DNA from: Sphagnum magellanicum
Taxonomy: Eukaryota; Streptophyta; Sphagnopsida; Sphagnales; Sphagnaceae
Direction: 5' to 3'
DNA length: 64,000 nt
NCBI GenBank assembly: GCA_021904315.1
Contig: CM038923.1
Coordinates: forward strand, 18,606,038-18,670,037
Below the pieces are notes generated by a model. The model saw nothing but the letters and a program-made list of their open reading frames with translations, was not told the origin of the DNA and searched no databases. The translations under genes and the position numbers were made by a program. Each line of letters begins with the position of its first letter. Within the stretch, counting starts at the first letter, position 1. Below are positions 1,611 through 62,742 of this stretch, piece by piece.

Positions 1611-3341
1611 GATTCGATTGCAACTTTAATGCATGTGAATTATTTTTGAGGTTCATCCATTGTTGAACTTTGCCCCTTCCCCTTTTTTATTATGGAATGG
1701 GTCTCGTAGAGCCAATTAGGAACAGTATATTTATTCACATCTGAAGTGTGTTCTCCAACATCAATTCACATAATAAGTGAATACAATAACCTAACAGATT
1801 ACATGGGGGAGAATTTGCCAAGGACATTTTCCCATTTCTCATTTAGTTATTCATTGGACAATTCATTGGTGAACTCTTAGGGTCAGGTCCAATGTAAGCT
1901 GCTCAACCACCATATCCAAGTAGTTTAGTAATCAAATTAGTGCAGGGTGTGCCACAAACTATTTGGCCACAGTCCCATGCCCCTACCGCACACAAACCGT
2001 AAAGAGCCGCTAATAGACCAATTGATAAAACTTGTAACAAATAAGCTAACTGGCAATAGCCAGTTTCATGGCTGCCACCTGTGAGTGAATGTGCCAAAAG
2101 TTGAAATGCTTGGATCTATGGAATCTCTCAAGTTGGTAGTCGAGCCCAGTAGTCATTGTTATCTCACATGCTAAACCATTTTCCATCACTAGATTCCAAA
2201 AAATAGTGATCCATCAGCTTACATGTGACCTCACCCTTTGCCCCACCTACATTTTGTGGGATCATTTGTCAACAAGTGACCTTTATTTGTTTGCATTCTA
2301 TACCTATTTGATTTAGGTTGTTTGAAACTATGGTGAAACCTCCAATTGTAAATATGGGGATCATTCATGGTGAATTTTGATCCACCATTCCCATTTTCTT
2401 TCTTTTGGACAATATGCTAACTTATTTACTTTTCGTGATTTTCATGTTGAACCAAGACAAGTTCCAATACTCAACTAAGCGTCTACTCTGTATGACAAAT
2501 GTAAACCAATATGTAGTAGGATGGACATAAACTAATTCTACCTCATGTCCACTCCATGACTTTTGAATGAATGTGTATAGTCACACGGAAACAAATAATT
2601 GCCACTCTATCATCTATGAATAAATATCATCATTGGATGATCCCCATGTAGCCATCATAATGCATATAACTTTGATATTGTAATGGATTGGATTATTATG
2701 TCCTACATGGAACTTGCTGAATCCAGCATTTTTCGAAACATTAGTGCTTTTGTTCACTATGACAACATAATCCAAAGAACATTACTTAAAATACACTTGG
2801 TGATAATGTTTACATTTGCCAAAGGAGTAATTTATCATATGCTCAAAATATAAAGTGCTTGAAGACTGCATTTAGAAGCCACTTTCCTTTCCATTCCAAA
2901 TCCAGATGAAAGAATTGGAGTGATAAAAACTCTTATTTTTGTGCATATGTATGAATGTTTACATTTGTCTTTCTTCCATGCAACTTGTGTAGAGTCTTAT
3001 GCCTGGTACAGCAATTAGATATGTATGAATATGATTTCTATATGTACTTGACATGTGGCAATGTCATGCAAGTGACCTTATGGATCTGGAGTTACTGGAA
3101 GGGGCTTCCATGCTCTTCCCACCCCAACAGAACCTACATTTGAGTTAATAATTCACCTTCTGAATGACAAACCATCCCACTTAGAGAAGAGGCTTTCATG
3201 AACTTTATGTTTGGATGATAATAAGGTACTAAAGATATAAATTAAAACAGGCCAATGATAATCATGACAAAGCAATATAACACATAACATTTTATATGTA
3301 CCTGAAGTGGCTAGAAATATGATGTCAACAAATGGATGACA

Positions 3342-6246
3342 TCATATTTCTATTTCTACTTCTTCCGTTCTTATTATTGGAAGCTTCATCCAATCTCTAT
3401 ATTTGATGAGAGCCAAAACAATAGAACCAATAGCCATGGCAGTGCCAACGAATGCCATTGATGCATAATTGGCGACCAATATGGCAAAACAGCTCACCAC
3501 AAAATTAACAAAGAAGATCAACCCTGTTGGAGGTGGCCTTCTGGCATTGGAATGTTCACTTCCTGGGCTAGCTGTTGGTTTGGGGAATGTGTTATCCCCA
3601 GTTGTTTCCTTGTCAATGTTACTGCCAAGTTCGAAGATGGGATGAACTGGATGATCAAGAAAACTTTTCCCTACTGGGCCATCAAGAAGTAGTCTCCCAG
3701 CAGAATACTCTCCAATGAGTTGTAACCTACACACAGCTCTCTTGTATCCCTCCTCGTCCTCTGGAATACTATCTGGAGTACCTGAGAAATGCTTCAACAT
3801 GAACTTTATGGTTTCCAGGAGAGGGGTCCCCCGAGGATCCTTCGCATGATGTTCCAATTTGATTTTCAAATTGATTCTAGCACCAATGTACCCCTCCTCT
3901 GCCCAACGAACATTTGGAATCTGTGAAAGGCAGTGCAACATTTCTGATATGCACGGCAAAAGATTTTCAAGCTTGTTTTGTTTTTCTACAGCAACATGGA
4001 ACATCTTATTTGCTTTCTCATCATTCTGAGGAACACCATGTCCAAGAGCATAACAGCATCCAAGCCCCACATATTCACAAGTAGCATCTTCCAATTTAAT
4101 GGCTGCCTGATAACAATGGGCTGCCTCCTCATGATTTTGCTCTGTACCAAGTCCAAGCTCAAAACACAGTCCAAGTCTGAACAGTGTCTCTGGGTTATCA
4201 TGTTCTGCTGCACTCCTGAACAATTCAAATGCCTGTTCAAAGTCAGCCTGGTCATCAATCCAATTGCCAATATGCTTTCCCACTTTCAACTGCAGTTTGA
4301 TCCAATCTGCACATCCTATGTACTGCTCCACAACGTCCAAGTTTTGCTTGTGGAATGCCTCCAGTACTATGAGACTGTACACTTGTATCGGAAGATTCTC
4401 CTTCAAACTCTCCTCGAGACACTTCTGTAAACCCAGGGCACATGATAACTTATGGGTGTCATGCTCATTGATGCATTTTAGAGGCGAGGGATGCACATGC
4501 CTCAATAGTGCACCCTTGCAATGCACCAACATTTGGCAGATTTCAGGAAATTTGGGACGGTCTTCAGCCCTTGTGGCCCAACACCTGTCTATGAATGCTG
4601 ACAAGTATGATGGGAAATCAGCCTTGGAAGGTAAAATAGGCCTCTCACCTATTTTAATTTTTTGATAGCTGTCAGTCGGCTGTATGTCAGCAAATGGTAT
4701 CTCCCCAGTGAGTACCTCAAAGAAAACCATTGCAAAACTATACACATCAGCTGAGTTTGTGTATGCCATGTTGTCCACCCCAAACAACTCAGGAGCCATC
4801 CATGGAGTTGAACCCACATGCAGTGTGGTAAACCTGTCCTGCAACTTTGAAAGGCCAAAGTCTGTGACCTTAACATGCAAGGATGAGCGAGCTAGGACAA
4901 GATTTTTGTTGCTGACGATGTCAATGAGAACATTCTGTGACTTCAGATCATGGTGCATCATCTTTTTCTGATGTAGGTAAGCCATGGCTCTCCCTATTTG
5001 TAGCATTATATCAATGGCTACAAGGAGTGAAAGCGGGGATCCTCTACTCACTCCTTGTTCCTTCAAGTACTTGAACAAGTCCATGCTCATGAGTTCAGAA
5101 ACAAGAATATGTTGAGTACCCTTGATTGCATACCCTATGAACCGAACCACATTTGGGTGTTGCAAACTTGCAAATATTTTTGCTTCTGCTTCCACTGCCT
5201 TGACCAATTGTGTGTGAGTGCCATCGAAAACCTTAGCAGCAGCTGGTACACCAAGGAATTTGCATTTGAACACTGTTCCAGATGATCCACCTCCAAGAAA
5301 TTTGTTAAGATTAATTTCCACATCACTGTGCATTAGTGGTGGTAGATGGCCAACAGCATCCTTGTCTGTGGATCTTCGTGTGTTCAGCAAATGACTTGCA
5401 AGGCCCTCCATGTGATGCCGAGCTTTCACAAATTTGGAAAAAAAGGAAGGTTTGTGTGCCTTTACATGGCGTATCAGGCATTCATTATCCTCTTCGAACT
5501 CTTCCTCAACATCTGTCTCTGACAATTCCAAATGCGGTATCATTCCTAGATTCTGCAATTGCAATCTTCAACACCTTGATGCAGTCCAGAAACTCATTCA
5601 AGTGGAGGACAATCTTACGTTGAACTGATGCACAATCAGATGAACTGATCACATGAATCCACCATTCCTCCTCACTCCAATCGGTCACCAACATCTCACC
5701 ACAACTCATGACAAGCCTTAGTTCTTCCAAAGCTACAGGGCACAATCCCAGAATTTTTGCATGAATCTTACCCAAACCCTTTCGTATGTATGTGTCCAAT
5801 TCAATCAGGGAGTCCCTGTATTTCCGGGTCAGTAGTGTGCTTAGATGTTGGTGAAACTTGACCTTCTTACATTGTCGCTGCATGGTGCTCTTAACATCCT
5901 GGCATTGGCTATATAGTCTTGTTATGCCAGAATGTGAACCCTATCAAGAGAAGGAAACATAATGTAGTTTGAGAAGATCATTGAACACATAGTTGATAAA
6001 TTCCATTATACCTTCCAAAACGTTACACACTCATGTAAAACTCAAGTTATATAGATCAACACTATTTCTCAACAAATGGTCCCTAGAGAAGATCAACCCT
6101 CAAGTGATTCAGTCATTACTGTGTAAACAAAATGATGGAGCACCTTCTACCTCTCTTCAAATCTATCAAGCACACATATGTGTAGATTAGACTGAAACAA
6201 TTATGGGATCTTTTTTGTATGGAAAGAAGAGGTTTACCTCAGCCAT
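3342..6246 (-). CDS. TKL-type protein kinase with Sel1 repeats and C-terminal membrane hairpin (copy A, damaged)
   Basis: Probable membrane-anchored Ser/Thr kinase; substrate unknown. Proposed exon 1 is Met-Ala-Glu (6246-6238) followed by a GTAAAC donor. Exon 2 starts at 5940 after a gatag acceptor and encodes an N-terminal helical domain. The main 740-residue frame starts at 5564. In it I see the glycine loop LGGGSSGTVF (about 90-99), ATP lysine AAAK (111), catalytic loop HHDLKSQN (204-211), DFG (235-237) and APE (257-259). Sel1-type repeats lie at about 441-525, and two hydrophobic segments at about 682-720. The catalytic motif is HHD instead of HRD, which copy B retains (cac-cgt-gat there, cac-cat-gat here). 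Between the N-terminal domain and the kinase the frame changes, and a 22-nt GT...AG stretch (5553-5574) would restore it. It lacks 24 nt (eight codons) present in copy B. Activity is doubtful. Confidence 0.8.
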
Positions 6247-9400: not shown

Positions 9401-11000
9401 TGTTAAATCATGTGTATGCTGTATTTATTTGCGGCAAATGACATGCCAATTCAGTAGTAATGTTGATTGTGTTGGAAATGTGAAATCACCAAAGTCATCA
9501 AATAGAGAATCACATTTTGTCATAGGCAAGTTTGTCAATAAAATATGAATTAGATTGACAGATTTTACTCCCCTCTTCTTTTCGCTTACATGGGGTCTTC
9601 CCATTTATGCTTCATTGTTTTTGTGTGTTGAGCAAACATGCAACTTGAAAATTGACTAGTACAAGCAATTGAAAACTGGATTTTAAAAGGGACTAATTTT
9701 CAATGTTGCAAAGCTAACAATCATCCAAATCAACACCTTGGATTAAAAGCTTGGAGGGACTAATTTGTAGAGACAAGGTGACAACCAAAGCCCCATCATG
9801 GCAGCCTTTGCTTTTTGAAGGTATGTACAAAGACCCGAAGAAGCTACCTTTTACATGGTTGCAGTTCCATGATTCTAAATTCCAAATGGAAATCCAACAG
9901 AAATGACAGATTAACATGAAAGTTTGATTTGTTTTACAGACTAGTGTGCTTCAAATATGTCATATATCCCAAATCTGAACATGCATAGTTGCCAGATATG
10001 GATGAGACCATAATCATAACATTTGTGATTCTCATATAGTGTATGTAACCACTAGAGGGCATCACAGCCACTTAACTGGTATGTGTGCATATCCTTTTCA
10101 GAAGCAGGAGTGTATCGTTCAGATGTGCTCCTAAGTCATATACAAAAACAATGTAGATTTTGTTGGTTTAATGAAGGTATCCAATTACCAATGCTAGTTA
10201 ATGATGCTTGAAATGAGACCAAATGCAGGATCCTGCAACCATCAGCAATTGGTCATGGGTGGTAGGATCCTTTGCACTTTTCAGTGAGCACATGCCTGAA
10301 GGCACTTCTGTTGAGGACTCAATAGTAAACTTGTCCACACACAACAACTGTTGCAGTTTGCTTGACATTCCAGAAGTGATTTTCTGTGAGAGGAAGTGAA
10401 GTCATTAGCAGAGACATCCCTCAATGCAAGAAGTGAAGGCGGAGCCAATACAGGATACTGATGTGCAGAGAGAGGTGATGAATGTGCAAACTGATGAAAG
10501 AAATCTTGAGAAATTAGGCCCTACCTATCTTCAAGAGACTAGACAATACATGGAGTCAACTCAGCACATGAACGAAGATTGGTTCTCAACTTCAAACTTC
10601 CAAGATGCCATGAAAACATCACCAGAAAGCCTTTGATAAGATCTTATTGTGCACTTACTCTGATTGACTGGAGAAACAATGACCATGATAATTACCCACA
10701 TAGTTATGAAGAGTATGGCAGTATGGATAGGCACCTGAAACAAGTTTAGAACAGCAACATGGTCATTTAGAATGTATCTGCAGAGAACAATTTTCTTACA
10801 GCTCATTAAGCACCCTGAAAACAGAAGAGTGAAAAATGATGCTCTTGCTTCATAAGTATTGAGAAATTCAGATGTCAAATCAGATGAGTGGTTGTGGTTC
10901 ATCAAATTACCAATTGAGAATTCATCTTACATTTCTCTCACAAAGTAAAAAAGATATTGGTTGCTTACATACTGCAGAGGTGAACCATTGAAGGCAAAGT
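6453..11000. other. Intergenic region with no convincing gene
   Basis: AT-rich sequence with short, compositionally random open frames. Part of it (about 6836-7260) is related to 44664-44836 plus 45661-45935, so the third block copy extends further in this direction than copy B. A 70-residue polar frame at 10424-10636, plus strand, has no recognisable motif. Confidence 0.5.
7097..7330 (-). pseudogene. Unrecognised coding remnant, paralogous to 45642-45908
   Basis: A minus-strand frame contains LIMLQDLEGLWKQNEV, and a nearly identical peptide occurs at 45642-45908, although the surrounding frames have drifted apart by indels. Conservation of the peptide despite indels hints at an old coding sequence, perhaps from a transposable element. 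The family is not recognised. Confidence 0.3.
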
Positions 11001-13936
11001 AATCCCAATGCCAAGTATTAAACACACACCATCAAGCCCATCTCATGCAATGACCATACACAAACATATGAAGGCATGGGCCAACTGCTGGATGCATTGA
11101 TCTGTTCCTTGTCGCCTCCTTGCATCATCTCTTTGCTTCAAAACACCTTCATGCACCTCATGTAAGACTAGCTGATTCAAGTGTCTAGAGGTTAGTCTTG
11201 CACCAGGTGTCATTAAGATTAGGTTGTTAAGTCAACACTCAAAATTTTGTAGGGGGAGCATAATGTAGATTCACAGTTAACTACCTCTCTGGTTACAACT
11301 CACAATTGTGTTGTGTACAATGTACATCAATTGAATGAAACAACAATTTTCTGACAGCATGTGAAAACTTCATGAAGACAGCTCACATTTACTGAATTTC
11401 TCCCATGGAGGGCTTGAAATGCATTAGAAATTGGTCTTGAGAGATAGGATGACAAACCTCTACATTTTCTGCCCATGTGCATTTTGATTGTAAAGAAATA
11501 GACAGTCAAAATAACAGTAGCTGCACAAGAGGGTGCTCTATCACTGATTCCCTCCATTCAACCAACAACAAGTTGGCCAGAGCTCCACTGCTTTGGGCAA
11601 TGATCACTATGTCCAGTAGCATCATCCTTGAAGGATCTCATCAAACCATTTATGTCCACATCACATGTGCAGATATTGTAGCACATGAGAATGTCCAGCA
11701 ATTATACTTTCAAAACACTAAATATTGTTGTACTAGAGCTGCTTTCAAGACTACACACAAAGAGCATCTAGAAGATTGTAAGATTTCACAACTAGTAATG
11801 ATATAGATTGCGAATCTTTTGCAGTTGCATGCAACATTCTTGTGATGCAATCTTCTTGTTGACAAGTTGTTGCTTGACAAGTTGTCAACAGTGCTATTAG
11901 TTTTTGCATTTCACTACACACAAGAAACTACATTCTGCCAACACGATCTCCAACACGAAAGTCTCAATACAGAAATAATCAATATCTCAGCGATGGTAGC
12001 AGAACATTGCCTAGTTGTGAAAAAACAAGATTCGTTTCCTGCAATCATCAAAGTCCTTAACGGAGATGACCCCTTAGATCCGAAATAAAGCAAGATTATG
12101 CCTAATCGAGGATTGTCCCATAGCATGCTACACATTCCTTGGCACAAGAAAGAAAATAGTTAGAAATGGACACTGAAAGACCATCTAGAGGTAGGTTCTC
12201 ACCATGCTATGTACAGTCAGTTTTCTCTAAATAGCTGCTGCTTTCTGGATCAGAAACGAGATTGCATGATTTTGGTTCATGAATTATCTCAAACTAAAAA
12301 TTGTGATCATAATAGAGGGATACCACAAGAGAGCTTGTTTTCTACCACCTTGATAAAATTCTTTGCTGGTGGAATCAAGAGAACGGTATGCAAAAACAAC
12401 TCATGTTTATTAGAAAGGAGATTTTGCAAGCAACTTCAGGAACCATCTGGTTGCATTGGAAGATATTTTGATACAAATGTTACGATTACTTAGTAGTTAA
12501 GTTGTTCTTATCTACATTGCTTTCTCTTGTAGACATTGGTGCAGTGTTTTGTGCTGAAATCTCACGATCATGAATAATGAAGCTTTTCCTCAAGATTTGA
12601 AGGCTTGCATGTGCTTTTCACTTGACTTGTCTCCCCATTACAGAGTTATTGCTTGCCTTGGCAGGTGACTGTTTCAACACTATATTTGGTTGTAGCCTAA
12701 CAATAGTGATCTAGTATCATGTGGAACATCCACCAAGAGAAAATCTTTTTCAATTTCAACATTCAGTCTGTAGTGGACACCAAACAAGACCAGATCATGA
12801 AAAAAGGAGATCAGAACTTTGTGTCCTGCTGTACACGAAGAGGGATCCTTGCTTTTGGTTAATCACATTCTTTAAACTTCTGTGTCTTGGCTACAAGATG
12901 GATGGTTCACAACCAGAAAAAACTGTGCCGTGTGTCCATGTGCATATCCTGGCAACAATGGTGGTGAATGATGAAATCAATGTTAAGGTACTATTCTCTT
13001 TGCTGTGAACATACTGCTGGTTCTTTAGTGATGTTTGAGAATCTTAGCAGCTATCCACTCATCTCATTTGCTTCCGCATTTGTGTTACCTCTTATAAATG
13101 GTTGAAAGAATGAAACACATTGACATTGTTTGTATTGGCTACATTGATGACAAGGAGAAGGAGCTGGTAGAAAAAATTGAACTGGAACATAAGAATTACT
13201 GCCCCTTCAAAGAAATGACACAAGAAGCTACCAAGGTTCTTGAAGAACTGTCTTTTGGGATCCATTCACTCCCTTTGATGTGTGTCCTCAAATTTTGCTT
13301 CTTTGTAACCAGATTTCACTCTTTCTCATGGATCAAAGTCGAAGACTTGGGCAAATCCCATCACACAAAGGGGAAATTTTGTCAAAAATTGAAGCCCAAA
13401 TGGTCTTAAATTTTCAAATTTTCTTCCATGGCTTGAACCATAAGGCAGCAAAAGATTTCTATACCTAAGAGTTGAATCTGATAAGGAATAAAAATTGTCA
13501 GGAATATACTATGTAATTTTTAATTTTCTACAAAAATTCTTTTGTGCTTGACCCAATTCAATGTGAACAAAGCTAGAACTAGCTTTCTCATTTTAAAGAT
13601 TATTGTTCCCTAGCTCATCTATTTGGAGTTCCATCTTGGAGATTCCATTGCACATTGAGGAAAAACTGGTGAAGGCAATGTTTTCTTTTGGTTGCAAAAT
13701 TTTGTCACAATGAGAAAATTAAAATAAAAGGGAATATTTTGTTGCTGTACTCCCATTTTTCCTTAAAAAAAAGTTAAATTTCAGGCTTTTAAAATAAATA
13801 AAAAATTGGCCACATTTGGCATCTAATTTTAGTTTAGTAGCATTTGAAAAAACTCGTTCAAAAACTATTAAGACATGTTCTGAATTTTTTTAATTGAATG
13901 CTAAATCCCTCTTGGAATGCTAACCAATTTGACATA

Positions 13937-14132
13937 ACATAAAAAAATTGAAAAAAATGTCATTGGCTGGAGGTAATGCCAATGCTTTGCTAATCAAAGA
14001 AGAATTTGGAATTTATTTTCCAATGTGTCACAAAACATAAAAAAATTGAAAAAAATGTCATTGGCTGGAGGTAATGCCAATGCTTTGCCAATCAAAAAAG
14101 AATTTTGAATTTCTTTTCCAATGTGTGACAAA
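13937..14132. repeat. Two 98-bp direct repeats inside the tandem unit
   Basis: Two adjacent units start acataaaaaaattg and continue through tcattggctggaggtaatgc. The second starts at 14035. The pair recurs at 17786-17981 in the second large unit. Confidence 0.85.
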
Positions 14133-14262
14133 CTTGGGGGAGGAATGCAGTGCAATTCCTGATCTAGCTCCAGCTTGGAACAAGGATTTTGTGTGTAAGC
14201 ACCCAAGGTTAAGGGCATAAGGCAATCTGCAACATCAAGTCATGCCTTGGTTGTTATGCACT

Positions 14263-14312
14263 ACTATCAGTGCCTTCCACCCCATGAACCAAGTGCGGAA
14301 GCCACTGATAGT
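14263..14312. repeat. Inverted repeat / potential hairpin (unit 1)
   Basis: The left arm actatcagtgccttcc (14263-14278) pairs with the right arm ggaagccactgatagt (14297-14312). One nucleotide is bulged and the loop is 18 nt. An identical hairpin lies at 18112-18161. It could be a remnant of a small inverted-repeat element or a structured RNA. Confidence 0.6.
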
Positions 14313-14529
14313 GGCGCCTTCCCCTATACAAACCTGGGTGTGTTAAAATTGCAGAATTGGGACCTCACCTGTCTTTCTGTAAAGCAATCCTCTGTGGAAT
14401 TTCCTCATAAGGCAAGTTCACAGGCTCTTTCTCTTCTCGAATGACCAACTGTATGTCATAAGACCTATTGATGTGCAAAGGAAAGATAGAAACCCCTGAA
14501 ACAAAATCCCATTTCTTTATGCAGGGTAA

Positions 14530-14849
14530 GAGCATCTTCACCGGTGCTCGATATGTGACTCCAAACAATAAAATATATTGTTAAAAAGTCAAAATGTGCT
14601 GGTTTAGCTTAGGAAATTGGTTTTTCAGAACCAGATTCGTGCAGCTTGCTGCGGTTGGTGAATGGCGCACAATTGTGCACCTCCAAAAAAGAGTGTGATA
14701 AATTGGACCTGACTGCGGCTCAGTACTTTTGATTGGTTGATCATAACGATTGTTCCAGGTGGTTTGCTATTAGTAGTCCCTATGTATATGCAGTTCCGGT
14801 TACAGTTTTATTGATGGGGTTGCAAAAAAAAAGTTAAACGTAGACATTT
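14530..14849. mobile_element. Truncated MITE-like element
   Basis: It begins with the same terminal sequence gagcatcttcaccggtgc as the full element at 18379-18744. Its right terminal repeat is missing because the tandem-duplication junction falls inside it. Confidence 0.6.
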
Positions 14850-17800
14850 AATCCCAATGCCAAGTATTAAACACACACCATCAAGCCCATCTCATGCAAT
14901 GACCATACACAAACATATGAAGGCATGGGCCAACTGCTGGATGCATTGATCTGTTCCTTGTCGCCTCCTTGCATCATCTCTTTGCTTCAAAACACCTTCA
15001 TGCACCTCATGTAAGACTAGCTGATTCAAGTGTCTAGAGGTTAGTCTTGCACCAGGTGTCATTAAGATTAGGTTGTTAAGTCAACACTCAAAATTTTGTA
15101 GGGGGAGCATAATGTAGATTCACAGTTAACTACCTCTCTGGTTACAACTCACAATTGTGTTGTGTACAATGTACATCAATTGAATGAAACAACAATTTTC
15201 TGACAGCATGTGAAAACTTCATGAAGACAGCTCACATTTACTGAATTTCTCCCATGGAGGGCTTGAAATGCATTAGAAATTGGTCTTGAGAGATAGGATG
15301 ACAAACCTCTACATTTTCTGCCCATGTGCATTTTGATTGTAAAGAAATAGACAGTCAAAATAACAGTAGCTGCACAAGAGGGTGCTCTATCACTGATTCC
15401 CTCCATTCAACCAACAACAAGTTGGCCAGAGCTCCACTGCTTTGGGCAATGATCACTATGTCCAGTAGCATCATCCTTGAAGGATCTCATCAAACCATTT
15501 ATGTCCACATCACATGTGCAGATATTGTAGCACATGAGAATGTCCAGCAATTATACTTTCAAAACACTAAATATTGTTGTACTAGAGCTGCTTTCAAGAC
15601 TACACACAAAGAGCATCTAGAAGATTGTAAGATTTCACAACTAGTAATGATATAGATTGCGAATCTTTTGCAGTTGCATGCAACATTCTTGTGATGCAAT
15701 CTTCTTGTTGACAAGTTGTTGCTTGACAAGTTGTCAACAGTGCTATTAGTTTTTGCATTTCACTACACACAAGAAACTACATTCTGCCAACACGATCTCC
15801 AACACGAAAGTCTCAATACAGAAATAATCAATATCTCAGCGATGGTAGCAGAACATTGCCTAGTTGTGAAAAAACAAGATTCGTTTCCTGCAATCATCAA
15901 AGTCCTTAACGGAGATGACCCCTTAGATCCGAAATAAAGCAAGATTATGCCTAATCGAGGATTGTCCCATAGCATGCTACACATTCCTTGGCACAAGAAA
16001 GAAAATAGTTAGAAATGGACACTGAAAGACCATCTAGAGGTAGGTTCTCACCATGCTATGTACAGTCAGTTTTCTCTAAATAGCTGCTGCTTTCTGGATC
16101 AGAAACGAGATTGCATGATTTTGGTTCATGAATTATCTCAAACTAAAAATTGTGATCATAATAGAGGGATACCACAAGAGAGCTTGTTTTCTACCACCTT
16201 GATAAAATTCTTTGCTGGTGGAATCAAGAGAACGGTATGCAAAAACAACTCATGTTTATTAGAAAGGAGATTTTGCAAGCAACTTCAGGAACCATCTGGT
16301 TGCATTGGAAGATATTTTGATACAAATGTTACGATTACTTAGTAGTTAAGTTGTTCTTATCTACATTGCTTTCTCTTGTAGACATTGGTGCAGTGTTTTG
16401 TGCTGAAATCTCACGATCATGAATAATGAAGCTTTTCCTCAAGATTTGAAGGCTTGCATGTGCTTTTCACTTGACTTGTCTCCCCATTACAGAGTTATTG
16501 CTTGCCTTGGCAGGTGACTGTTTCAACACTATATTTGGTTGTAGCCTAACAATAGTGATCTAGTATCATGTGGAACATCCACCAAGAGAAAATCTTTTTC
16601 AATTTCAACATTCAGTCTGTAGTGGACACCAAACAAGACCAGATCATGAAAAAAGGAGATCAGAACTTTGTGTCCTGCTGTACACGAAGAGGGATCCTTG
16701 CTTTTGGTTAATCACATTCTTTAAACTTCTGTGTCTTGGCTACAAGATGGATGGTTCACAACCAGAAAAAACTGTGCCGTGTGTCCATGTGCATATCCTG
16801 GCAACAATGGTGGTGAATGATGAAATCAATGTTAAGGTACTATTCTCTTTGCTGTGAACATACTGCTGGTTCTTTAGTGATGTTTGAGAATCTTAGCAGC
16901 TATCCACTCATCTCATTTGCTTCCGCATTTGTGTTACCTCTTATAAATGGTTGAAAGAATGAAACACATTGACATTGTTTGTATTGGCTACATTGATGAC
17001 AAGGAGAAGGAGCTGGTAGAAAAAATTGAACTGGAACATAAGAATTACTGCACCTTCAAAGAAATGACACAAGAAGCTACCAAGGTTCTTGAAGAACTGT
17101 CTTTTGGGATCCATTCACTCCCTTTGATGTGTGTCCTCAAATTTTGCTTCTTTGTAACCAGATTTCACTCTTTCTCATGGATCAAAGTCGAAGACTTGGG
17201 CAAATCCCATCACACAAAGGGGAAATTTTATCAAAAATTGAAGCCCAAATGGTCTTAAATTTTCAAATTTTCTTCCATGGCTTGAACCATAAGGCAGCAA
17301 AAGATTTCTATACCTAAGAGTTGAATCTGATAAGGAATAAAAATTGTCAGGAATATACTATGTAATTTTTAATTTTCTACAAGAATTCTTTTGTGCTTGA
17401 CACAATTCAATGTGAACAAAGCTAGAACTAGCTTTCTCATTTTAAAGATTATTGTTCCCTAGCTCATCTATTTGGAGTTCCATCTTGGAGATTTCATTGC
17501 ACATTGAGGAAAAAGTGGTGAAGGCAATGTTTTCTTTTGGTTGCAAACTTTTGTCACAATGAGAAAATTAAAATAAAAGGGAATATTTTGTTGCTGTACT
17601 CCCATTTTTCCTTAAAAAAAAAGTTAAATTTCGGGCTTTTTAAAAAAAAAAAAATTAGCCACATTTGGCATCTAATTTTAGTTTAGTAGCATTTGAAAAA
17701 ACTCGTTCAAAAACTATTAAGACATGTTCTGAATTTTTTTAATTGAATGCTAAATCCCTCTTGGAATGCTAACCAATTTGACATAACATAAAAAAATTGA

Positions 17801-18698
17801 AAAAAATGTCATTGGCTGGAGGTAATGCCAATGCTTTGCTAATCAAAGAAGAATTTGGAATTTATTTTCCAATGTGTCACAAAACATAAAAAAATTGAAA
17901 AAAATGTCATTGGCTGGAGGTAATGCCAATGCTTTGCCAATCAAAAAAGAATTTTGAATTTCTTTTCCAATGTGTGACAAACTTGGGGGAGGAATGCAGT
18001 GCAATTCCTGATCTAGCTCCAGCTTGGAACAAGGATTTTGTGTGTAAGCACCCAAGGTTAAGGGCATAAGGCAATCTGCAACATCAAGTCATGCCTTGGT
18101 TGTTATGCACTACTATCAGTGCCTTCCACCCCATGAACCAAGTGCGGAAGCCACTGATAGTGGCGCCTTCCCCTATACAAACCTGGGTGTGTTAAAATTG
18201 CAGAATTGGGACCTCACCTGTCTTTCTGTAAAGCAATCCTCTGTGGAATTTCCTCATAAGGCAAGTTCACAGGCTCTTTCTCTTCTCGAATGACCAACTG
18301 TATGTCATAAGACCTATTGATGTGCAAAGGAAAGATAGAAACCCCTGAAACAAAATCCCATTTCTTTATGCAGGGTAAGAGCATCTTCACCGGTGCACGA
18401 TATGTGACTCCAAACAATAAAATATATTGTTAAAAAGTCAAAATGTGCTGGTTTAGCTTAGGAAATTGGTTTTTCAGAACCAGATTCGTGCAGCTTGCTG
18501 CGGCTGGTGAATGGCGCACAATTGTGCACCTCCAAAAAAGAGTGTGATAAATTGGACCTGACTGCGGCTCAGTACTTTTGATTGGTTGATCATAACGATT
18601 GTTCCAGGTGGTTTGCTATTAGTAGTCCCCATGTATATGCAGTTCCGGTTACAGTTTTATTGATGGGGTTGCAAAAAAAAAGTTAAACGTAGACATTT
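14850..18698. repeat. Tandem duplication, unit 2 (3849 bp)
   Basis: Near-identical, same-orientation copy of 11001-14849 that begins with aatcccaatgcc. The left outer flank, the central junction and the right outer flank share TAAT at the breakpoints, a 4-bp microhomology. Divergence is very low even in AT-rich non-coding parts, so the event looks recent, or the copies are being homogenised. Confidence 0.97.
18112..18161. repeat. Inverted repeat / potential hairpin (unit 2)
   Basis: Second copy of the 14263-14312 hairpin, unchanged as far as I can see. Confidence 0.6.
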
Positions 18699-18744
18699 AA
18701 TTTTACTATCCAGTGTGACATACTGAGCATCGGTGGAGATGCTC
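18379..18744. mobile_element. MITE-like element with 30-bp terminal inverted repeats
   Basis: The left end gagcatcttcaccggtgc... (18379-18408) and the reverse complement of the right end gagcatctccaccgatgc... (18715-18744) agree at 24 of 30 positions. The element is 366 bp with no coding capacity. I could not find a convincing target-site duplication, so the superfamily is unresolved. Confidence 0.65.
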
Positions 18745-21913: not shown

Positions 21914-32428
<10,515 letters not shown>

Positions 32429-44089: not shown

Positions 44090-44436
44090 CTTCCATCACT
44101 TTTGAATGAATGTGAATAGTCATGAAGAGACAAAGAATCACTATTCTTTCATCTATAAATAAATATCACCATTGGATGATTCCCAAGTAGCCTTCATGAT
44201 GCAAATACTTGATATATGATAGATGTGACAGAATTTGGATTTGGTGCTTTTATTGACTATAACAACATAATCCAAAGAATATCATTTTAAATACACTTGG
44301 TGATGGTGGTTGCATTTGCCAAAGGAGTAATTTATCATATGCTCAAAATATAAACTGCTCGAAGATTGCATCTAGAAGCCATTTTCCAGATGAAGAATTG
44401 GAGTGATAAAAACTCTTATTTTTGTGCATATGTATG

Positions 44437-44663
44437 AATGGGATGGAACTGGATCACCGAGAAATTTGACAATGGGATGAACTGGATCACAAAGTAATAT
44501 TGGGCCATCAAGAAGTAGTCTCCCACTAGAATGTTCTCCAATGAGTTGCAACCTACACACAGCTCTCTTCTATCCCCCCTTGTCGTCTGGAATACTATCT
44601 GGAGTACTTGAGAAATGCTTCAACATGAATTTTATGGTTTCCAAGAGAGGGGTCCCCCGAGGT
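44437..44663 (-). pseudogene. Kinase/Sel1 gene fragment (third copy)
   Basis: Minus-strand fragments correspond to the segment of copy B just before the C-terminal membrane hairpin: RGTPLLETIKFMLKHF, then CRLQLIGEHSSGRLLLDG and DPVHPIVKFLGDP, with a frame change between them. The kinase domain, Sel1 repeats and membrane segments are absent, so it cannot make the family protein. Confidence 0.85.
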
Positions 44664-44836
44664 GGGGTCAAGTTGGGGGCAATGCTTGTAGCATTGAACA
44701 TTTGTGACCCATTGTTGTCAAAGTTGTTAGAATCACCAAAATTAATTTTTTGTTTTATTAATGGCAACATCTTCTTCATTTCTTCTCACAAGTCTACCCA
44801 CTGAGATATGTTTTTTAACACATGTTCAATGTTAAT

Positions 44837-45660
44837 TGACGTGCCCCCAAGTTCCTTGTTAGACCCAAAAGGGTCCAACTATGTCAAAGAGCGGAAGTAA
44901 TTGGAACTTGGTGTTGCTCCCAACTTTGAGCACTAAAGGGGGTAAGAGGGGCATGCTGAAAGTTCTGGGATTAGACTAGGAAGAGAGACAAGCTATTTAG
45001 TTACTCGGTCCTGCATTCAAAACCAACCAACAAGTTGGTTAGTTCACATTCGAAACACTCTTGGTGTTGGAACAAACCATGAGCAACCCTGGATTCACTT
45101 GACTCATCACCATGGCTCGGACTCGGGGGAAGCCACCACCTTGCCCCATATAGTATTCTCTATATCTCTCCGCCGCACTTACATCCGAATGGCACTTTTT
45201 CCCGGGACTCCCAAAGTGGAGTCCCGAAATTGTCCTGGTTTGGACTCCCAAGACTTTGGGCATTCCTAACTTCTCGTTCTGACCTCCGATTAGAACGAAA
45301 TCTGAAGCAAACTTGTAGCTCCCCTTGAGAACTTTCCAATGGTGTGTCGCACTCCACCTGCACACACCGGGATCGGGTCAATTCCCGACTTTTAGTGGTC
45401 GAGAGTCAAACTAGCAGTTTAACTCCTAGCCCTTCTTTCGGCCATAATTTATGCTACAAATGTTCAAATGGCTCATGCGAGGTCATTTTAGACATTTACA
45501 TTTCAAGACCTTTCCAACAATATGAAGAACACTTCGATGCGAGGTGTTTTGACCCTTGCAATTGCGCTCTGAGTTTTCGGGAGTCCTAAAGGCCTCCCAA
45601 GTCCCATTTTCGAGAGTGTGAGTGGCAACCTCACATTTCCCTCAAAGTGGGGTTACGACA
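44837..45660. mobile_element. Solo LTR (824 bp) with 5-bp target duplication
   Basis: The insert begins TGACGTGCC and ends TTACGACA, so it has TG...CA ends. It is flanked on both sides by TTAAT (44832-44836 and 45661-45665). The paralogous site in copy A has a single TTAAT (7008-7012) and no insert. It is GC-richer than its surroundings, with no internal retroelement genes and no second LTR in the window. LTR orientation was not determined. Confidence 0.8.
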
Positions 45661-45908
45661 TTAATGAAGGTGAATGCACTACATTTTGGGTGTTTTGGTT
45701 TGAGCTTTTGAAATGCATCTTTAGTCCATGTCTTTAATTCACAAAGAAAAAACACAATAGGGTTGTTTCCTTTGAACTTGGTAACATCTTGTTCTGACAC
45801 CTCATTTTGTTTCCAAAGACCTTCCGAATCTTGGAGCATAATCAATAGGACAAGTTTCATTGAAATGATGTTGCATTGTGTCACAAAATGTTGTAAACTT
45901 TTGCTCAT
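45642..45908 (-). pseudogene. Unrecognised coding remnant, paralogous to 7097-7330
   Basis: Contains LIMLQDSEGLWKQNEV and a longer downstream Lys-rich frame. One end of this frame runs into the solo LTR. Unknown family. Confidence 0.3.
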
Positions 45909-48157: not shown

Positions 48158-50171
48158 CTCTCAAGTTGGTAGTCCATCCCAGTAGTCATTGTTATCTCAC
48201 ATGCTAAACCATTCTCCATCACTAGATTCCAAAAAATAGTGCTTGATCAGCTTACATGTGACCTGGCCCTTTACCCCACCTACATTTTGTGGGAGCATTT
48301 GTCAACAATCTACCTTTATTTGTTTGGATTCTATACCTATTTGATTTAGGTTGTTTGAATTGGGGTGAAACCTCCAATTGTAAATATGAGGATCATTCAT
48401 GGTGAACTTTGATCCACCATTCCCATTTTCTTTCTTTTGCACAATATGCTAACTTATTTACTTTTTGTGATTTTCATGTTGAACCAAGACAAGTTCCAAT
48501 ACTCAACTAAGCGTCTACTTTGTATGACAAATATAAACCAATATGTAGTAGGATGGACATAAACTAATTCTACCTCATGTCCACTCCATGACTTTTGAAT
48601 GAATGTGTATATAGTCACACGGAAACAAATAATTGCTACTCTATCATCTATGAATATATATCAGCATTGGATGATCCCCATGTAGCCATCATAATGCATA
48701 TAACTTTGATATTGTAATGGAATTTGGATTATTATGTCCAACATGAAACTTGTTGAATCCAGCATTTTTGGAAACATTAGTGCTTTTGTTCACTATGACA
48801 ACATAATCCAAAGAACATTACTTAAAATGCACTTGGTGATAATGTTTACATTTGCCAAAAGGAGTGATTTATCATATGCTCAAAATATAAAGCGCTTGAA
48901 GACTGCGTTTAGAAGCCACTTTCCTTTCCATTCCAAATCCAGATGAAGAATTGGAGTGATAAAAACTCTTATTTTTGTGCATATGTATGAATGTTTACAT
49001 TTGTCTTTCTTCCATGCAACTTGTGTAGAGTCTATGCCTGGAACAGCAATTAGATATGTATGAATATGATTTCTATATGTACTTGACATGTGGCAATGTC
49101 ATGGGAGTGACCATGCCTAGTAAATTTCTTTCCAAAGTCAGTTACCTTATGGATCTGGAGTTACTGGAAGGGGCTTCCATGCTCTCCCCACCCCAACAGA
49201 ACCTACATTTGAGTTAATAATTTACCCACTGAATTACAAACCATCGCACTTAGGGAAGAGGCTTTCATGTACCACTTTACTAGTGTGTGCCCTGTGTCTA
49301 AGGCACAGGTGTGTGTGTGTCAGGGAGGATAAGCAAATTTTCTTTTGATTTTCCCACCTTCCTTCTTTTCCCTCTTCCTTTATGTTTTTCCTCTCCACCT
49401 TCCTTGGTATGTTTTATGTTCCCTTATTTTCCCAAATAATTCCCAATAGCACCATTTTTTGACAAAAAATATCATAAATGATTTTTTTAAATGTTTTACC
49501 TTGTCAAATAAATATTTCAAGGGAGAGGATATACCAATGCCCACTACTACTTTTTACAACCGTCGAATATATGACACTGACATGGGAGATTAATCCTCTT
49601 AGGAAAAATTAGAATACACCAAGATAAGTGAGATTTCCTGGGTCCTGGCGGCCTGATTTCGTATGGCCTCCTTTGCTGTTGGATTTACCGCCTAGATCTA
49701 ACGTCTCTGCTGACACGTCTACATGAACAGGTACGTAGTAGCAAGCTAACTAGCTTAGCTGTAACGTCCTCCCCGTCTTTCCCATAAATCCTGTCTTTCC
49801 TATAATCATCATTTCCCCTTTCCTCACCGGCTTCACAGATTCGTGCCTCACCTCCCTAATTGGCATGCTTCTAGTTTTAAATAGACGGATGATGAGATGG
49901 ATGAAATGTCCGTCCGACTGGATGACGGGATGGATGGACGCACCTTGCCCTTTCTAAAGGCAACTGTCCGTCCGCGGCTTCAGGGGCGGCTTCATTGTCG
50001 GTACAATTGTTCCTTTATTATAAGTAATAACCAGCATTGGGTGGTTACCTAGTGTGAACCCCGTGCATAATGCATAGGTGTGTTATTTCAACAATGTTTG
50101 ATTGATGTTTTTGATTTTTTAAAAAAACTTTTCTTTTCAAACAACCGTTGGTCCCCCCCCTCGTCGCCCCA

Positions 50172-50573
50172 GTCCTTCACATTTCCCATTCCGGTTCTTT
50201 ACCTTGTCGAGCCCCCTCGGCCGATCCTTCGCATTTCTCACTCCGGTTCTTTAACTTGTTGAGCCCTCTCGGCCAGTCCTTTGCAATTCCCACTCCGGTT
50301 CTTTAACCCGTCGATCCCCCTCGGCCGATCCTTCACATTTCCCATTCCAATTCTTTAACCCGTCGAGCTCCCCCGACTGGTCCTTCACATTTCCCACTCC
50401 GATTCTTTAACCCGTCAATCCCCCCAGCCGGTTCTTCGCATTTCCCACCCCGATTCTTTAACCCGTCAATCCCCCCTCCGGTCGTTCACATTTCCCACTC
50501 TAATTTTTTAACCTGTCAATCCCCCCCTCGCCTGGTCCTTCACATTTCCCACTCTGATTCTTTAACCCGTCGA
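50172..50573. repeat. C-rich minisatellite, eight units of about 50 bp, inside the Helitron-like element
   Basis: Units follow the pattern tccttcacatttcccactcc, gattctttaacccgtcgat, then a C-run with variable tcggccg. Eight units are recognisable with substitutions. Confidence 0.85.
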
Positions 50574-50595
50574 CCCCCCCCCCCCCCCCCCCCCC
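50574..50595. repeat. Poly-C run
   Basis: About 22 consecutive C residues at the end of the minisatellite; length uncertain. Confidence 0.85.
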
Positions 50596-50610
50596 AAAAG
50601 ATATATACTT

Positions 50611-50825
50611 GTCTTTACGTCAGTCATATCCTTTGTCCAAAGGTTTTTTTTTCTTCTTCTTCCTGGTTTATTTCCTTACCATTCCGTAGTCTTTACGTCG
50701 GTCATATCCTTTGTCCAAAGGTTTTTTTTTTCTTCTTCTTCCTGGTTTATTTCCTTCACATTCCGTAACCACTGTCCTTTTTTTCTTCTTCTTCCTGGTT
50801 TATTTCCTTCCCATTCCATAACCAC
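50611..50825. repeat. Pyrimidine-rich tandem repeat, about 2.5 units
   Basis: Two units of tcatatcctttgtccaaagg plus ttcttcttcttcctggttta, about 78 bp each, followed by a partial third unit. Confidence 0.8.
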
Positions 50826-51126
50826 TGTCCGTGCCGAGCGGAGTTAGGGGAAGCTTCATCCTTCCTTTACTTGTGTGTGAGCGCAAGATCTCTAGAGTCC
50901 CAAAGTACATTACTATGTGAATAAAATAGTAAGAAAGTATAGACTGTCCGTCCGGCTTCACGGGCGGCTTCATTGTCGGTACCATCCTTCCTTTACAATA
51001 TGACCGACCATCCTTCCTTTACAATATGTAACTAGTGTGAGCCCCGTGCACAATGCACGAGTGTGTTATTTCAACAATGTTTGGTTGATGTTTTTGATTT
51101 TTTAAAAAAACTTTTGTTTTCAAACA

Positions 51127-51305
51127 ACTGTCGATCCCCACTCCGTCGGTCCTTCCCATTTCCCGCTCCAGTTTTTTAACTCGTCAATCCTTTCTCGTCG
51201 CTTCGATCCTTCACATTTCTCACTTCAGTTCTTTACCCTGTCGACCCCTCTCGCGCGCTCGATCCTTCACATTTCCCACTCCGATTCTTTAACCCGTCGA
51301 TCCCG
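51127..51305. repeat. Second array of the Helitron minisatellite, three units
   Basis: Same catttcccactccgattctt / taacccgtcgat unit as 50172-50573. This supports homology between the internal units of the composite element. Confidence 0.8.
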
Positions 51306-52065
51306 TCAAATAGTAGTAGCAATGGTTGACGATACATATTACAAAATTACAATTACAAACTACATTTCCAAAACCTCTCTATATACCACATTGCTAGGTT
51401 CTTTTTGGGGGAATTTATTTTCATTGTTTCAACCTGAAATCTATTTTTTCTACACATTCTAACATTTTCTGTGAAAAGGAATGGCCCTAATCGTCAAATT
51501 TTGACATTCCATATATTGGAACTATGGGAACAATGTAAGGTAGTCTACATATGACAAAGGATATGGCACTCCCGCCCCAAAATAGAAGCACAGAGGTGCT
51601 TCCCTTTGGCCCCCTTTATAATTTATATATATAAGTCTTTTTGAGGGCACATCAAAGAGCCCGATGAACAGGCACCCACACTGGTAAAAACCCTGACATT
51701 TTTTAGGATGCTTCTAACCCTGGTAAATATGGCATCCCTAATACTAAATAAGTACCCCCAGTTTATATGGTGACGAACAGTTTTGGAAATAGAAATTTCA
51801 TGCAGCCAATGGGAAGGCTCAACATGCATGTTCTGTTTGGATGGACAGAGGACGGATGGACAAAGGACGGATGACGAGATGAGTTGAGGGGAAGCCGACC
51901 AAACGCACGGATTTAAGGGAGGCTTCATTTGGTCGGGACCATCGTTCGTTTACTATATAGGATGTTTGGATGATAATAAGGTACTAAAGACATAAATTAA
52001 AACAGGCCAATGATAATCATGACAAAGCAATATAACACATAACGTTTTATATGTACCCGAAGTGG

Positions 52066-55044
52066 CTAGAAATATGATGTCAACAAATCGCTGACATCAT
52101 ATTCTATTTCTACTTCTTCCGTTCTTATTATTGGAAGCTTCATCCAATCTCTATATTTGATGAGAGCCAAAACAATAGAACCAATAGCCATGGCAGTGCC
52201 AAGGAATGCTATTGGTGCATAATTGGCAACCAATATGGCAAAACAACTCACCACCAAAGAAACAAAGAAGATCAACTCTGTTGGGGGTGGCCTTCTGGCA
52301 TTGGAATGTTCATGTCCAGGGCTAGCTGCTGGTTTGGGGAATGTGTTATCCCCAGTTGTTTCCTTCTCAATGTTACTGCCAAGTTTGACAATAGGACGAA
52401 CTGGATCACCAAGAAATTCGACAATGGGATGAACTGGATCACGAAGCAATACTGGGCCATCAAGAAGTAGTCTCCCACTAGAATGCTCTCCAATGAGTTG
52501 TAACCTACACACAGCTCTCTTGTATCCCTCCTCCTCTGGAATACTATCTGGAGTACCGGAGAAATGCTTCAACATGTACTGTATGGATTCCAGGAGAGGG
52601 GTCCCCCGAGGATCCTTTGCATGATGCTTCAATTTGATTTTCAAATTGATTCTAGCACCAATGTATCCCTCCTCTGCCCAACAAACATTTGGAATCTGTG
52701 AAAGGCAGTGCAACATTTCTGATATGCACGGCAAAAGATTTTCAAGCTTGTTTTGTTTTTCTACAGCAAACTGGAACATCTCATTTGCTTCCTTATCATT
52801 CTGAGGAACACCGTGCCCAAGAGCATAACAGCATCCAAGCCCCACATATGCACAAGTAGCATCTTCCAATTTAATGGCTGCCTGATAACATCGGATTGCC
52901 TCCTCATGATTTTGCTCTGTACCAAGTCCAAGCTCAAAACATAGTCCAAGTCTGAACAGTGCCTCTGGGTTATCATGTTCTGCTGCACTACTGAACAATT
53001 CAAATGCCTGTTTAAAGTCAGCCTGGTCATCAATCCAATTGCCAATATGCTTTCCCACTTTCAACTGCAGTTTGATCCAATCTGCACATCCTATGTACTG
53101 CTCCACAACGTCCAAGTTTTGCTTGTGGAATGCATCCAGTACTATGAGACTGTACACTTGTATTGGAAGATTCTCCTTCAAACTCTCCTCAAGACACTTC
53201 TGTAAACCCAGGGCACATGATAACTTATGGGCATCATGCTCATTGATGCATTTTAGAGGCGATGGATGCACATGCCTCAAAAGTGCACCCTTGCAATGCA
53301 CCAACATTTGGCAGATTTCAGGAAATTTGGGACGGTCTTCAGCCCTTGTGGCCCAACAACTCTCTATGAATGCTGACAAGTATGATGGGAAATCAGCCTT
53401 GGAAGGTAAAATAGGCCTCACACCTATTTTAATGTTTTGATAGATGTCAGTCCGCTGTACCTCAGCAAATGGTATCTCCCCAGTGAGGACCTCAAAGAAA
53501 ACCATTGCAAAACTATACACATCAGCTGAGTTTGTGTATGCAATGTTGTCCACCCCAAACACCTCAGGAGCCATCCATGGAGTTGAACCAACATGCAGTG
53601 TGGTAAACCTGTCCTGCAACTTTGAAAGGCCAAAGTCTGTGACCTTAACATGCAAGGATGAACGACCTAGGGCAAGATTTTTGTTGGTGACAACGTCGAT
53701 GAGAACATTCTTTGACTTCAGATCACGGTGCATCACCTTTTTCTGATGTAGGTAATCCATGGCTCTCGCTATTTGTAGCATTATATCAATGGCTACAAGG
53801 AGGGAAAGCGGGGATCCTCTACTCACTCCTTGTTCCTTCAAGTACTTGAACAAGTCCATGCTCATGAGTTCAGAAACAAGAATTGTTGAGTACCCTTGAT
53901 TGCATACCCTATGAACCGAACCACATTTGGGTGTTGCAAACTTGCAAATATTTTTGCTTCTGCTTCCACTGCCTTGACCAATTGTGTGTCAGTGCCATCG
54001 AAAACCTTAGCAGCAGTTGGTACACCAAGGAATTTGCATTTGAACACTGTTCCAGATGATCCACCTCCAAGATATTTGGTAAGATCAATTTCCACATCAC
54101 TGTGCATTAGTGACGGTAGATGGCCAATGGCATCCTTGTCTGTGGATCTTCGTGTGTTCAGCAAATGACTTGCAAGGCCCTCCATGTGACGCCGAGATTT
54201 CACAAATTTGGAAAAAAAGGAAGGTTTGTGTGCCTTTACATGGCGTATCAGGCATTCACTATCCTCTTTGAACTCTTCCTCAACATCTGTCTCTGACAAT
54301 TCCAAATGCTCAATTGTTGAGAGAACGAATGTGGGTATCATTCCTAGCTTCTGCAATTGCAATCTTCAACACCTTGATGCAGTCCAGAAACTCATTCAAG
54401 TGGAGGACAATCTTGCGTCGAACTGATGAACAATCAGATGAACTGATCACATGAATCCACCATTCCTCCTCACTCCAATTGGTCACCAACATCTCACCAC
54501 AACTCATGACAAGCCTTAATTCTTCCAAAGCTACATGGCACAATCCCAGAATTTTTGCATGAATCTCACCCGAACCCTTTCGTATGTATGTGTCCAATTC
54601 AATCAGGGAGTCCTTGTAATTCCGGGTCAGTAGTGTGCTTAGATGTTGGTTAAACTTGACCTTCTTACATTGTCGCTCCATGGTGCTCTTAACATCCTGG
54701 CATTGGCTATATAGTCTTGTTATGCCAGAATGTGACCCCTATCAAGAGAAGGAAACATAATGTAGTTTGAGAAGATCATTGAACACATAGTTGATAAATT
54801 CCATTATACCTTCCAAAAAGTTACACACTCATGTAAAACTCAAGTTATATAGATCAACACTATTTCGCAACAAATGGTCCCTAGAGAAGATCAACCCTCA
54901 AGTGATTCAGTCATTACTCTGTAAACAAAATGATGGAGCACCTTCTACCTCTCTTCAAATCTATCAAGCACACATATGTGTAGATTAGACTGAAGCAATT
55001 ATGGGATATTTGTTGGATGAAAACAAGGGGTTTACCTCAGCCAT
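52066..55044 (-). pseudogene. TKL-type kinase with Sel1 repeats and membrane hairpin (copy B, frameshifted)
   Basis: Same architecture as copy A. Met-Ala-Glu exon at 55044-55036, exon 2 from 54738, N-terminal helical domain, glycine loop LGGGSSGTVF (54362-53862 frame), then the rest of the kinase, Sel1 repeats and two C-terminal hydrophobic segments (53865-52066 frame). Unlike copy A it keeps an intact HRDLKSKN catalytic motif. One base is missing at about 53882-53884 (caagaattgttgag against caagaatatgttgag in copy A), which breaks the frame inside the kinase N-lobe. The C-terminus is extended by about 11 residues because one A is lost near the stop. The 22-nt frame discontinuity upstream (54351-54372) is shared with copy A. 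If the missing base were a sequencing error, this would be the better preserved paralogue. Confidence 0.8.
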
Positions 55045-61298: not shown

Positions 61299-62742
61299 GT
61301 GACCGAACCTCCACCTAGCCACACCCTGAACACAAATATCACACTTGCTGAGCTACTTCAGGGGTTGAAAAAGTTACAAAGGAACAAGGCTACCGATTTG
61401 GATGGTATGAAAGCTAAGTTCATTTTGGATGTGGGAGAGTTGCTACACATGCCACTATTGACAGCGTTCAATTGCTTTCTGGCAGAAGGCTTTCCAGAAG
61501 CCCTTTCCACTAGGGTGGTCCATGCGCTCTTTAACAAGGGCGATGCCTCCAAATTTTGACAACTATAGGGGGATAACGGTTGGGCTTATCCTAGCAAAGT
61601 TGTTCGTTATGATCCTTGACAAAAGGTTGAGCGAGTGGGCCGAACAACATGGGTTGTGTGCCAAAGGTCAAGCTGGGTTCGCAAAGATTACCACACTATT
61701 GACCAACTCTTCATATTGCAAACTCTGATAGAACAAAGCAAGGCAAAAAAGAAGCCACTCTATTGCTACTTTGTGGACTTAAAAAATGCGTTCGATACTA
61801 TGTCGCGTGAAGTGTCGTGGCAGGTGTTGGCTGGCCTTGGGGTGGAGGGACGCTTCTTGCGATGCTTACAGGCGATGTATGCCAAGGATACCGTACGCAT
61901 CAACCACCCAAGCGGATGTCACCTCCAGCTTCAAGTGCTAGCAAGGTGTGAACAAGGTTGTCCTCTCAGCCCCCTATTATTTGGGCTATATTTGGATGCC
62001 CTAGAGGGGCACTTAGATGGCAGAAAAATGCGATGCACCGACCCTATCAGATGTGCACGTATGGTTGATGTTTTTTGCAGATGACCTTGTTCTAACATCG
62101 GAATTAAAGGTGGGACTACAACAACAATTAGACGCACTCCAGCAGTTATGTGTTGAACGTGGACTTACAGTGAACGTGAAAAAAACAAAAGTCATGGTGT
62201 TCAATTTTGTTGACCCATGCCAAGAGTTTGTGTTTGAAGGTGACATTATTGAACGTGTGCAGACCTTCAAATACTTGGGGATCTTGTTCGAGACCACCCC
62301 GAACCTGGATAATGCAATGGAACATCTACCAGCTGCTAGTAGGCGCTCGCTATTTGCATTGAACCACCACTGTGCGGAACTACGTATTATGGATGTTAAG
62401 TTACACTATGACCTCTTCAACACATTGGTGCGTTCCACAGCAAGTTACGCCTGTGAGGTTTGGGTGGACTCTCAGAAAATAGAGGTTATTAAAGTAGTGT
62501 ATCGAGGGTTCCTCAAGTCCCTACTCGGGGTGCAAAAAACAACCAACATGTCCATCGTGTTGGCAGAATTTTGTAAATTACCTTTTGAACACTTTGCATG
62601 GGGACAAGCACTATTGTACTATAACCGTGTGAGCACGATCACTAAATACCACATCTTAGGAAAGGCACGGGAAGCCCAGCTTGTTATGCTTGTTGCAGGC
62701 AAGAAATGTTGGGCTAGATCCATGAAAAAATGGCTATTCTAG
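61299..62742 (+). pseudogene. LINE reverse transcriptase
   Basis: Fingers and palm are visible: NFDNYRGITVG, GQAGF, FVDLKNAFDTMSRE (first catalytic Asp), EQGCPLSPLLFGLYLD, MFFADDLVL (catalytic FADD) and VNVKKTKVMVF, then a thumb/connection region with FKYLGILF. All catalytic Asp residues remain, but frameshifts near 61550, 61690 and 62030 break the frame. Confidence 0.9.

Follow-up and report, generated by a model that had tools for sequence, protein, structure and literature searches.

In this study we analysed a 64,000-nucleotide stretch of contig CM038923.1 of Sphagnum magellanicum (the window) and found that an array of three Helitron-like units within it is, in all probability, a pile of separate Helitron insertions, each made at the 5' edge of its predecessor. 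The array occupies 49280..51962 on the minus strand, its units standing head to tail and differing from one another in sequence. It most likely grew at its 5' edge because, among copies of the same host site, the 3' base of the array is constant and the added units begin at one shared host position. The site exists in one empty and four differently filled copies, natural intermediates from which the order of insertion can be read directly. The preliminary description of this DNA had offered two origins, successive insertion or a concatemer mobilised whole; the sister loci and a second same-site pair on another contig (C3) favour the former, at the 5' edge, over the latter.

On the minus strand, the insert extends from 51962 (TCC...) to 49280 (...CTAG), with a host A on the 51963 side and a host T on the 49279 side, and its termini are A-TCCTATATAG...GGGCACACACTAG-T (a hyphen marks a join here and below). 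The 5' TC and 3' CTAG that had been described are thus both present, on a strand that the description had not stated. When the two flanks (49140-49279 and 51963-52085) were joined and aligned with 3071-3330, in copy A of the same host gene, they gave a clean match, apart from scattered substitutions and a single 3-base gap a short way ahead of the junction. This alignment confirms to the base both the limits of the insert and the empty A^T site in copy A (3207..3208), proposed earlier as an internal control, between whose two bases the insert of copy B would fall. Target duplications, which had been named as a sign against Helitron transposition, were looked for in the alignment of the joined flanks with copy A, and none was seen; the insertion lies between host A and T without duplication, as expected of a Helitron.

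Two CTAG ends inside the insert, at 51032 and 50049, split it, on the minus strand, into units of 931, 983 and 769 bp, and both of these ends are formed by CACACTAG (51032-51039 and 50049-50056). Unit 1 (51032..51962, minus strand, A-TCCTATATAG to GGGGCTCACACTAG) is the 5'-most and, if the units were stacked as we propose, the youngest of the three; unit 2 (50049..51031, minus strand, TTACATATTG to GGGGTTCACACTAG) contains a 52-bp minisatellite at 50172-50579; and unit 3 (49280..50048, minus strand) opens with GTAACCACCC, continues to TTATTAC and ends in GGGCACACACTAG beside the host T. At its minus-strand start (50031-50048), unit 3 carries 18 bases, GTAACCACCCAATGCTGG, ahead of the usual TTATTAC 5' start. 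The 5' dinucleotide is TC in unit 1, and hence in the whole insert, TT in unit 2 and GT in unit 3. A 5' motif resembling TATA.TAAA.GAA follows the internal end at 51032 directly and that at 50049 after 26 bases. All three units end in CTAG, and the hairpin upstream of it exceeds shuffled sequence in unit 1 (51043..51061, minus strand, z -2.14) and unit 3 (49291..49309, minus strand, z -1.78), while that of unit 2 (50058..50079, minus strand, z -0.84) is no better than shuffles. Of the two internal hairpin-plus-CTAG ends beside 5'-like motifs that had been noted, the CTAG and the motifs stand, as does the unit 1 hairpin; the Helitron-like ends, the three units and the A^T site are otherwise borne out by the alignment, the internal ends and the sister loci. 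A stretch spanning the junction of units 3 and 2 is 79% alike, over 371 bp, to one spanning the junction of units 2 and 1, so the units are related at their 5' starts and in their 3' parts, with middles that differ.

A search of the genome (439 Mb, 31 contigs) with the whole 2.7-kb insert, proposed earlier as a check, found the full-length piece at its own place only among the 40 of 2548 candidates that were scored. The next three best matches are on the same contig (C17), at distances of 62-181 kb, and the flanks of these three sister loci belong to the same host gene at the same insertion site. In P2 (L036), the host A is followed by unit 2, starting with TTACATATTG in direct contact with that A, then by unit 3 and host sequence; in copy B of the window, the host A is followed by units 1, 2 and 3 and the host. 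In P3 (L037 and L056), the host A is followed by a 6.9-kb autonomous element, by unit 2', which is unit 2 without its first ~45 bp, and by unit 3, and in P1 (L035 and L055) by a 2.4-kb element X, the 6.9-kb element, the same unit 2' as in P3, and unit 3. The four occupied loci share their 3' units, with unit 3 as the base common to all, and differ in their 5' units, the 5'-most of which begins in each case after the same host A.

This pattern is repeated by a pair of arrays 38.5 kb apart on C3, which share both host flanks (96-98%) and a 3' unit c. One holds units a-b-c and the other d-c, both starting beside the same host A; once more the 3' unit is constant and the 5' side different. These same-site sets bear on the idea that new units were added at the 3' end, into the G-T step formed by CTAG and the host T. 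Such addition would yield the same CTAG-T junctions and is one of two options named for a maize pair in the excerpted text of PMC2267711, yet the 3'-most unit is constant in both sets, with the differences on its 5' side, and G-T differs from the A^T target of host insertions. We give 3' addition hardly any credence and reject it for the two same-site sets on C17 and C3.

Alternatively, a longer ancestral array might have come first, the paralogues then losing units by recombination between alike ends or by precise excision. The ends of the units are similar enough for recombination, gene conversion is evident at the locus, P1 and P3 have a small deletion at the junction of the autonomous element and unit 2 in common, and the difference between them could be explained by one crossover in the shared TCTCTTATATTAAAAGAA. 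It is above all between P1 and P3 that loss from a longer ancestor may apply. Copy B and P2, however, would be related by the exact removal of unit 1 between the unlike 5' ends TCCTATATAG and TTACATATTG; the ~45 bp missing at the junction of the autonomous element and unit 2 in P1 and P3, which include the start of unit 2, are retained as that start in P2; and the C3 pair needs additional exact losses. We therefore regard loss as an improbable account of these arrays and prefer stepwise growth at the 5' edge.

Later unit loss and gene conversion are nevertheless the main doubts on the stacking order. The 200 bp of P1 beside the array are 99.5% alike to copy A versus 97.5% to copy B, evident gene conversion, to judge from the sequence, that would blur the history of the locus, and the node supports among the four occupied copies are 54-87. 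Among the five copies, the four occupied ones are 98.7-99.8% alike, and copy A stands farthest off, at 91.8-95.3% to them, so the empty state is probably the older, in a comparison that covers copy A and the four occupied copies; the genome may hold more copies of the site, filled or empty. Likeness among the paralogues is about 99% for the host flanks but 94.8-97.8% for unit 3 and 85-94% for unit 2. Transitions and transversions stand at 43:11 in unit 3 (window, L035, L036 and L037) and at 12:10 and 18:19 in the flanks, so the excess differences of unit 3 are mostly transitions, as expected for methylated DNA; transversions too are somewhat denser in unit 3 than in the flanks. The first stacking step was not clean, because the junction of units 2 and 3 has G where T is expected: it reads CTAG-G or CTAA-G, never CTAG-T, in all four copies, and a T-to-G change would have to be assumed there. 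P2 has A instead of T as the host base that follows unit 3.

Movement of the whole array as one concatemer formed in rolling-circle transposition is very unlikely. In excerpts of PMC5876387, head-to-tail Helitron junctions are cited in support of rolling-circle replication, and arrays in support of rolling-circle transposition, and units 2 and 3, which always occur together at this site, might have arrived jointly. Among the fetched arrays compared, L040 (3009-5508) is where alike units were seen, three Helitron units in tandem at 97.5-99.4%, in contrast to the mixed arrays, and this locus fits tandem duplication or rolling-circle multimers better than stacking. The units of a concatemer would be alike, though, and those of the window are unlike one another over most of their length; the same site holds two, three or more units; no second whole copy appeared among the 40 of 2548 candidates scored; and relatives of units 1 and 2, and of the last 527 bp of unit 3, are also found beside other partners. 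The 5' end of unit 1 adjoins a host A, with matches to unit 1, at L038, L039, L041 and L054 as well, and L052, on C2, has a near full-length relative of unit 2, its pieces rearranged, without unit 3 after it. Other genomic copies ending at different positions had been named as a sign against the proposed termini; the relatives of unit 1 have the same start as in the window, and those of unit 3 the same end. For the whole block of units 1, 2 and 3, one-piece arrival is rejected at this site by the sister states, P2 in particular.

Smaller blocks are another matter, since the autonomous element with unit 2 on C2 and four recurring junction pairs suggest that some may travel together. The pair of autonomous element and unit 2 on C17 recurs at L052, 93.5% alike across the junction to P1 and 89.4% to P3. 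In the comparison of L052 (minus strand, 1-3426) with P1 and P3, one junction reads CTAG-TATTG and the other has a small deletion. Thirty-seven junctions were read in the fetched arrays, with T next in 33 and G in four, the four being one junction common to the C17 paralogues. Their partners vary: comparing these junctions with one another, in 666 pairs, shows likeness on both sides in 11, on the left alone in 81 and on the right alone in 21. Junction pairs alike on both sides at different host sites are L044-L046, L044-L047, L046-L047 and L045-L051. Block mobility of array pairs is mostly not seen, and two-unit blocks may have moved.

An autonomous partner with Rep, a PIF1-type helicase and related ends lies within the sister arrays themselves. 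The 6.9-kb element is present in P3 and P1 at the same site; in P3, where its domains were tested, it begins TCTCTTATATTAAAAG and encodes Helitron_like_N (E 1.1e-56), PIF1 (E 7.2e-84) and Pif1 2B (E 2.2e-21) domains, with stops breaking the frames. Its last bases were lost at the junction in both P1 and P3, and its relative at L052 ends in CTAG. The array had been called helicase-free, which is true of the window copy and not of the two sister arrays that hold this element. Genome-wide, at least 150 matches to PF14214 were found with 150 of 576 candidates scored, and at least nine of them have a copy of the unit 3 end, in matching orientation, no more than about 4 kb away (for example C9:8180259 and C9:8184475), for which reason unit 3 probably has its 3' end in common with autonomous elements. 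The linked Rep/PIF1 element is the likely, predicted source of the enzyme.

Junctions of this kind are widespread. The 3'-end pattern GCACGGGGNNCACACTAG occurs more often than chance would allow, with 365 exact matches in the genome (none for the reversed-pattern control), and exact head-to-tail junctions of the form CTAG-T...TATA.TAAA number 103 (four for the reversed-pattern control). Head-to-head junctions numbered zero genome-wide under a stricter pattern than the head-to-tail one, with both 5' motifs exact, each longer by GAA and 4-10 bases apart, which misses the longest termini. In the window and 23 loci (L035-L057) chosen by similarity to this insert, there are 32 head-to-tail, no head-to-head and no tail-to-tail junctions. 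A 5'-end pattern in which the first T was required and a T before it disallowed matched 214 ends, and among the 100 listed the preceding base is A in 81, G in 18 and C in one; the second base is T in 71 and C in 29. Seventeen of the 18 listed ends after G coincide with listed head-to-tail junctions, and three listed ends after A lie inside junctions with longer termini (C2:28840605, C4:3354420 and C6:8212487). Where fetched CTAG ends have no 5' motif after them (n=20), T is the next base in 16.

Among 100 listed of the 365 3' ends, all on C1-C4, 23 run straight into another 5' end. Neighbouring ends within 1.5 kb on these contigs form 15 same-strand pairs and no opposite pair, and within 10 kb 22 same-strand pairs and one opposite, with 0.38 same-strand pairs expected from random placing. 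If 10,000 insertions, an assumed figure, fell at random on A^T, the chance of three at four given sites would be about 1.6e-10; by this estimate and the same-strand excess, a chance origin of the pile is rejected.

The order of families within arrays offers support for stacking, not proof, because neither the pairs of one array nor the two C3 paralogues count as independent. Families were sorted by the two letters before CACACTAG, the TT type comprising units that end GGGGTTCACACTAG. On C1-C4, TT-type units lie 3' of other types in nine of ten mixed pairs, in a test of few arrays, two of them mutual paralogues. The fetched arrays, P1, P3, L057 and incomplete chains excluded, show the same arrangement in 15 of 17 mixed pairs; it is broken in the window and in P2, whose TT-type unit 2 is located 5' of unit 3. 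A further unit follows 4 of 54 TT ends versus 19 of 46 other ends (Fisher p 8e-5).

How could one site take several elements? These elements start with T, and insertion of one beside the host A would remake A^T from that A and the first T of the resident; the site would in this way be reusable, each round leaving a CTAG-T junction and shifting the older units 3'-ward. Random A^T insertion would produce far fewer piles than there are, and all those found are head-to-tail, from which we infer that the transposase may target resident 5' ends, a proposal with roughly even odds. As A^T is identical on both strands, its availability alone would give both orientations, and one is seen; this is the main reason for suggesting 5'-end targeting beyond a reusable dinucleotide. 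Helitron Rep recognises and nicks its own 5' end between A and T. By the simplest route, Rep would cut the resident element at its 5' A^T, the incoming 5' end would be joined to the host A, and the incoming CTAG end would be joined to the resident's T. It is a coin-toss in our estimation whether these Helitrons home, in a single orientation, to the 5' ends of residents from related Helitron families, making arrays akin to geological layers, older 3' and younger 5'. If so, resident ends would be landing pads that spare host genes; a preference for them would amount to transposon-directed target choice by Helitrons, and array order would serve as a relative clock for Helitron families.

The elements resemble canonical plant Helitrons (Rep/PIF1) in A^T insertion without duplication, in the 3' CTAG, accompanied by a hairpin in units 1 and 3, and in the presence of Rep and PIF1 in a linked element alongside many units without them, and differ in that the second 5' base is T more often than C among the listed ends. 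We would class them as Helitrons with a relaxed 5' start (T, then T or C), and think it very probable, as to the order of events, that they were inserted serially at the 5' edge.

Tandem Helitrons are already known, and have so far been read, in the text available to us, both in support of rolling-circle concatemers and as repeated insertion. As excerpted, Du et al. 2008 (PMC2267711) describe two unlike maize Helitrons head to tail, judged to be consecutive insertions, and leave open whether the second entered at the 3' G-T or at the 5' A^T of host A and resident T. That pair, too, has unlike units joined CTAG-TC at one site; maize lines with only the left element favoured 3' addition or later clean excision there, whereas the four occupied states and the empty one at the present site indicate 5' addition. 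In excerpts of PMC5148889, three Helitron copies stand in tandem in Metarhizium acridum, with insertion into the 5' end twice as one possibility, left open against rolling-circle replication. Helraiser/Helibat (PMC4778049 and PMC5876387, as excerpted) shows similarly precise CTAG-TC junctions and A^T targets, but joins the two ends of one element in a circle, in contrast to the genome-fixed junctions between different families here, and PMC3288121, in the part available, regards the nesting of Helitrons as one way in which multiple termini arise. The direction of growth is not settled in the excerpts of PMC2267711, PMC3288121, PMC5876387, PMC13286980, PMC13253262, PMC4778049, PMC5148889, PMC6213432, PMC4683698 and PMC3060143.

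The insert lies ~100 bp past the end of the open frame of host gene copy B (52066..54365, minus strand), a gene for a protein kinase with Sel1 repeats, domains that were tested on copy A (3345-5567). Copy A is one frame of 741 aa (3342-5567), and copy B consists of two overlapping open frames. Short fragments between the copies, at 44241-45854, match the kinase region of both at 83-92%. Elsewhere in the window, a 3.85-kb direct tandem duplication (11000-14852 and 14849-18701) is 99.6% alike, pieces at 21914-23502 have a kinase-like appearance by eye, and a Malectin-like domain lies at 31135-31839, inside 21914-31839. A reverse transcriptase domain (RVT_1) at 61620-62742 is split across two frames, and our guess is that this element is of LINE type.
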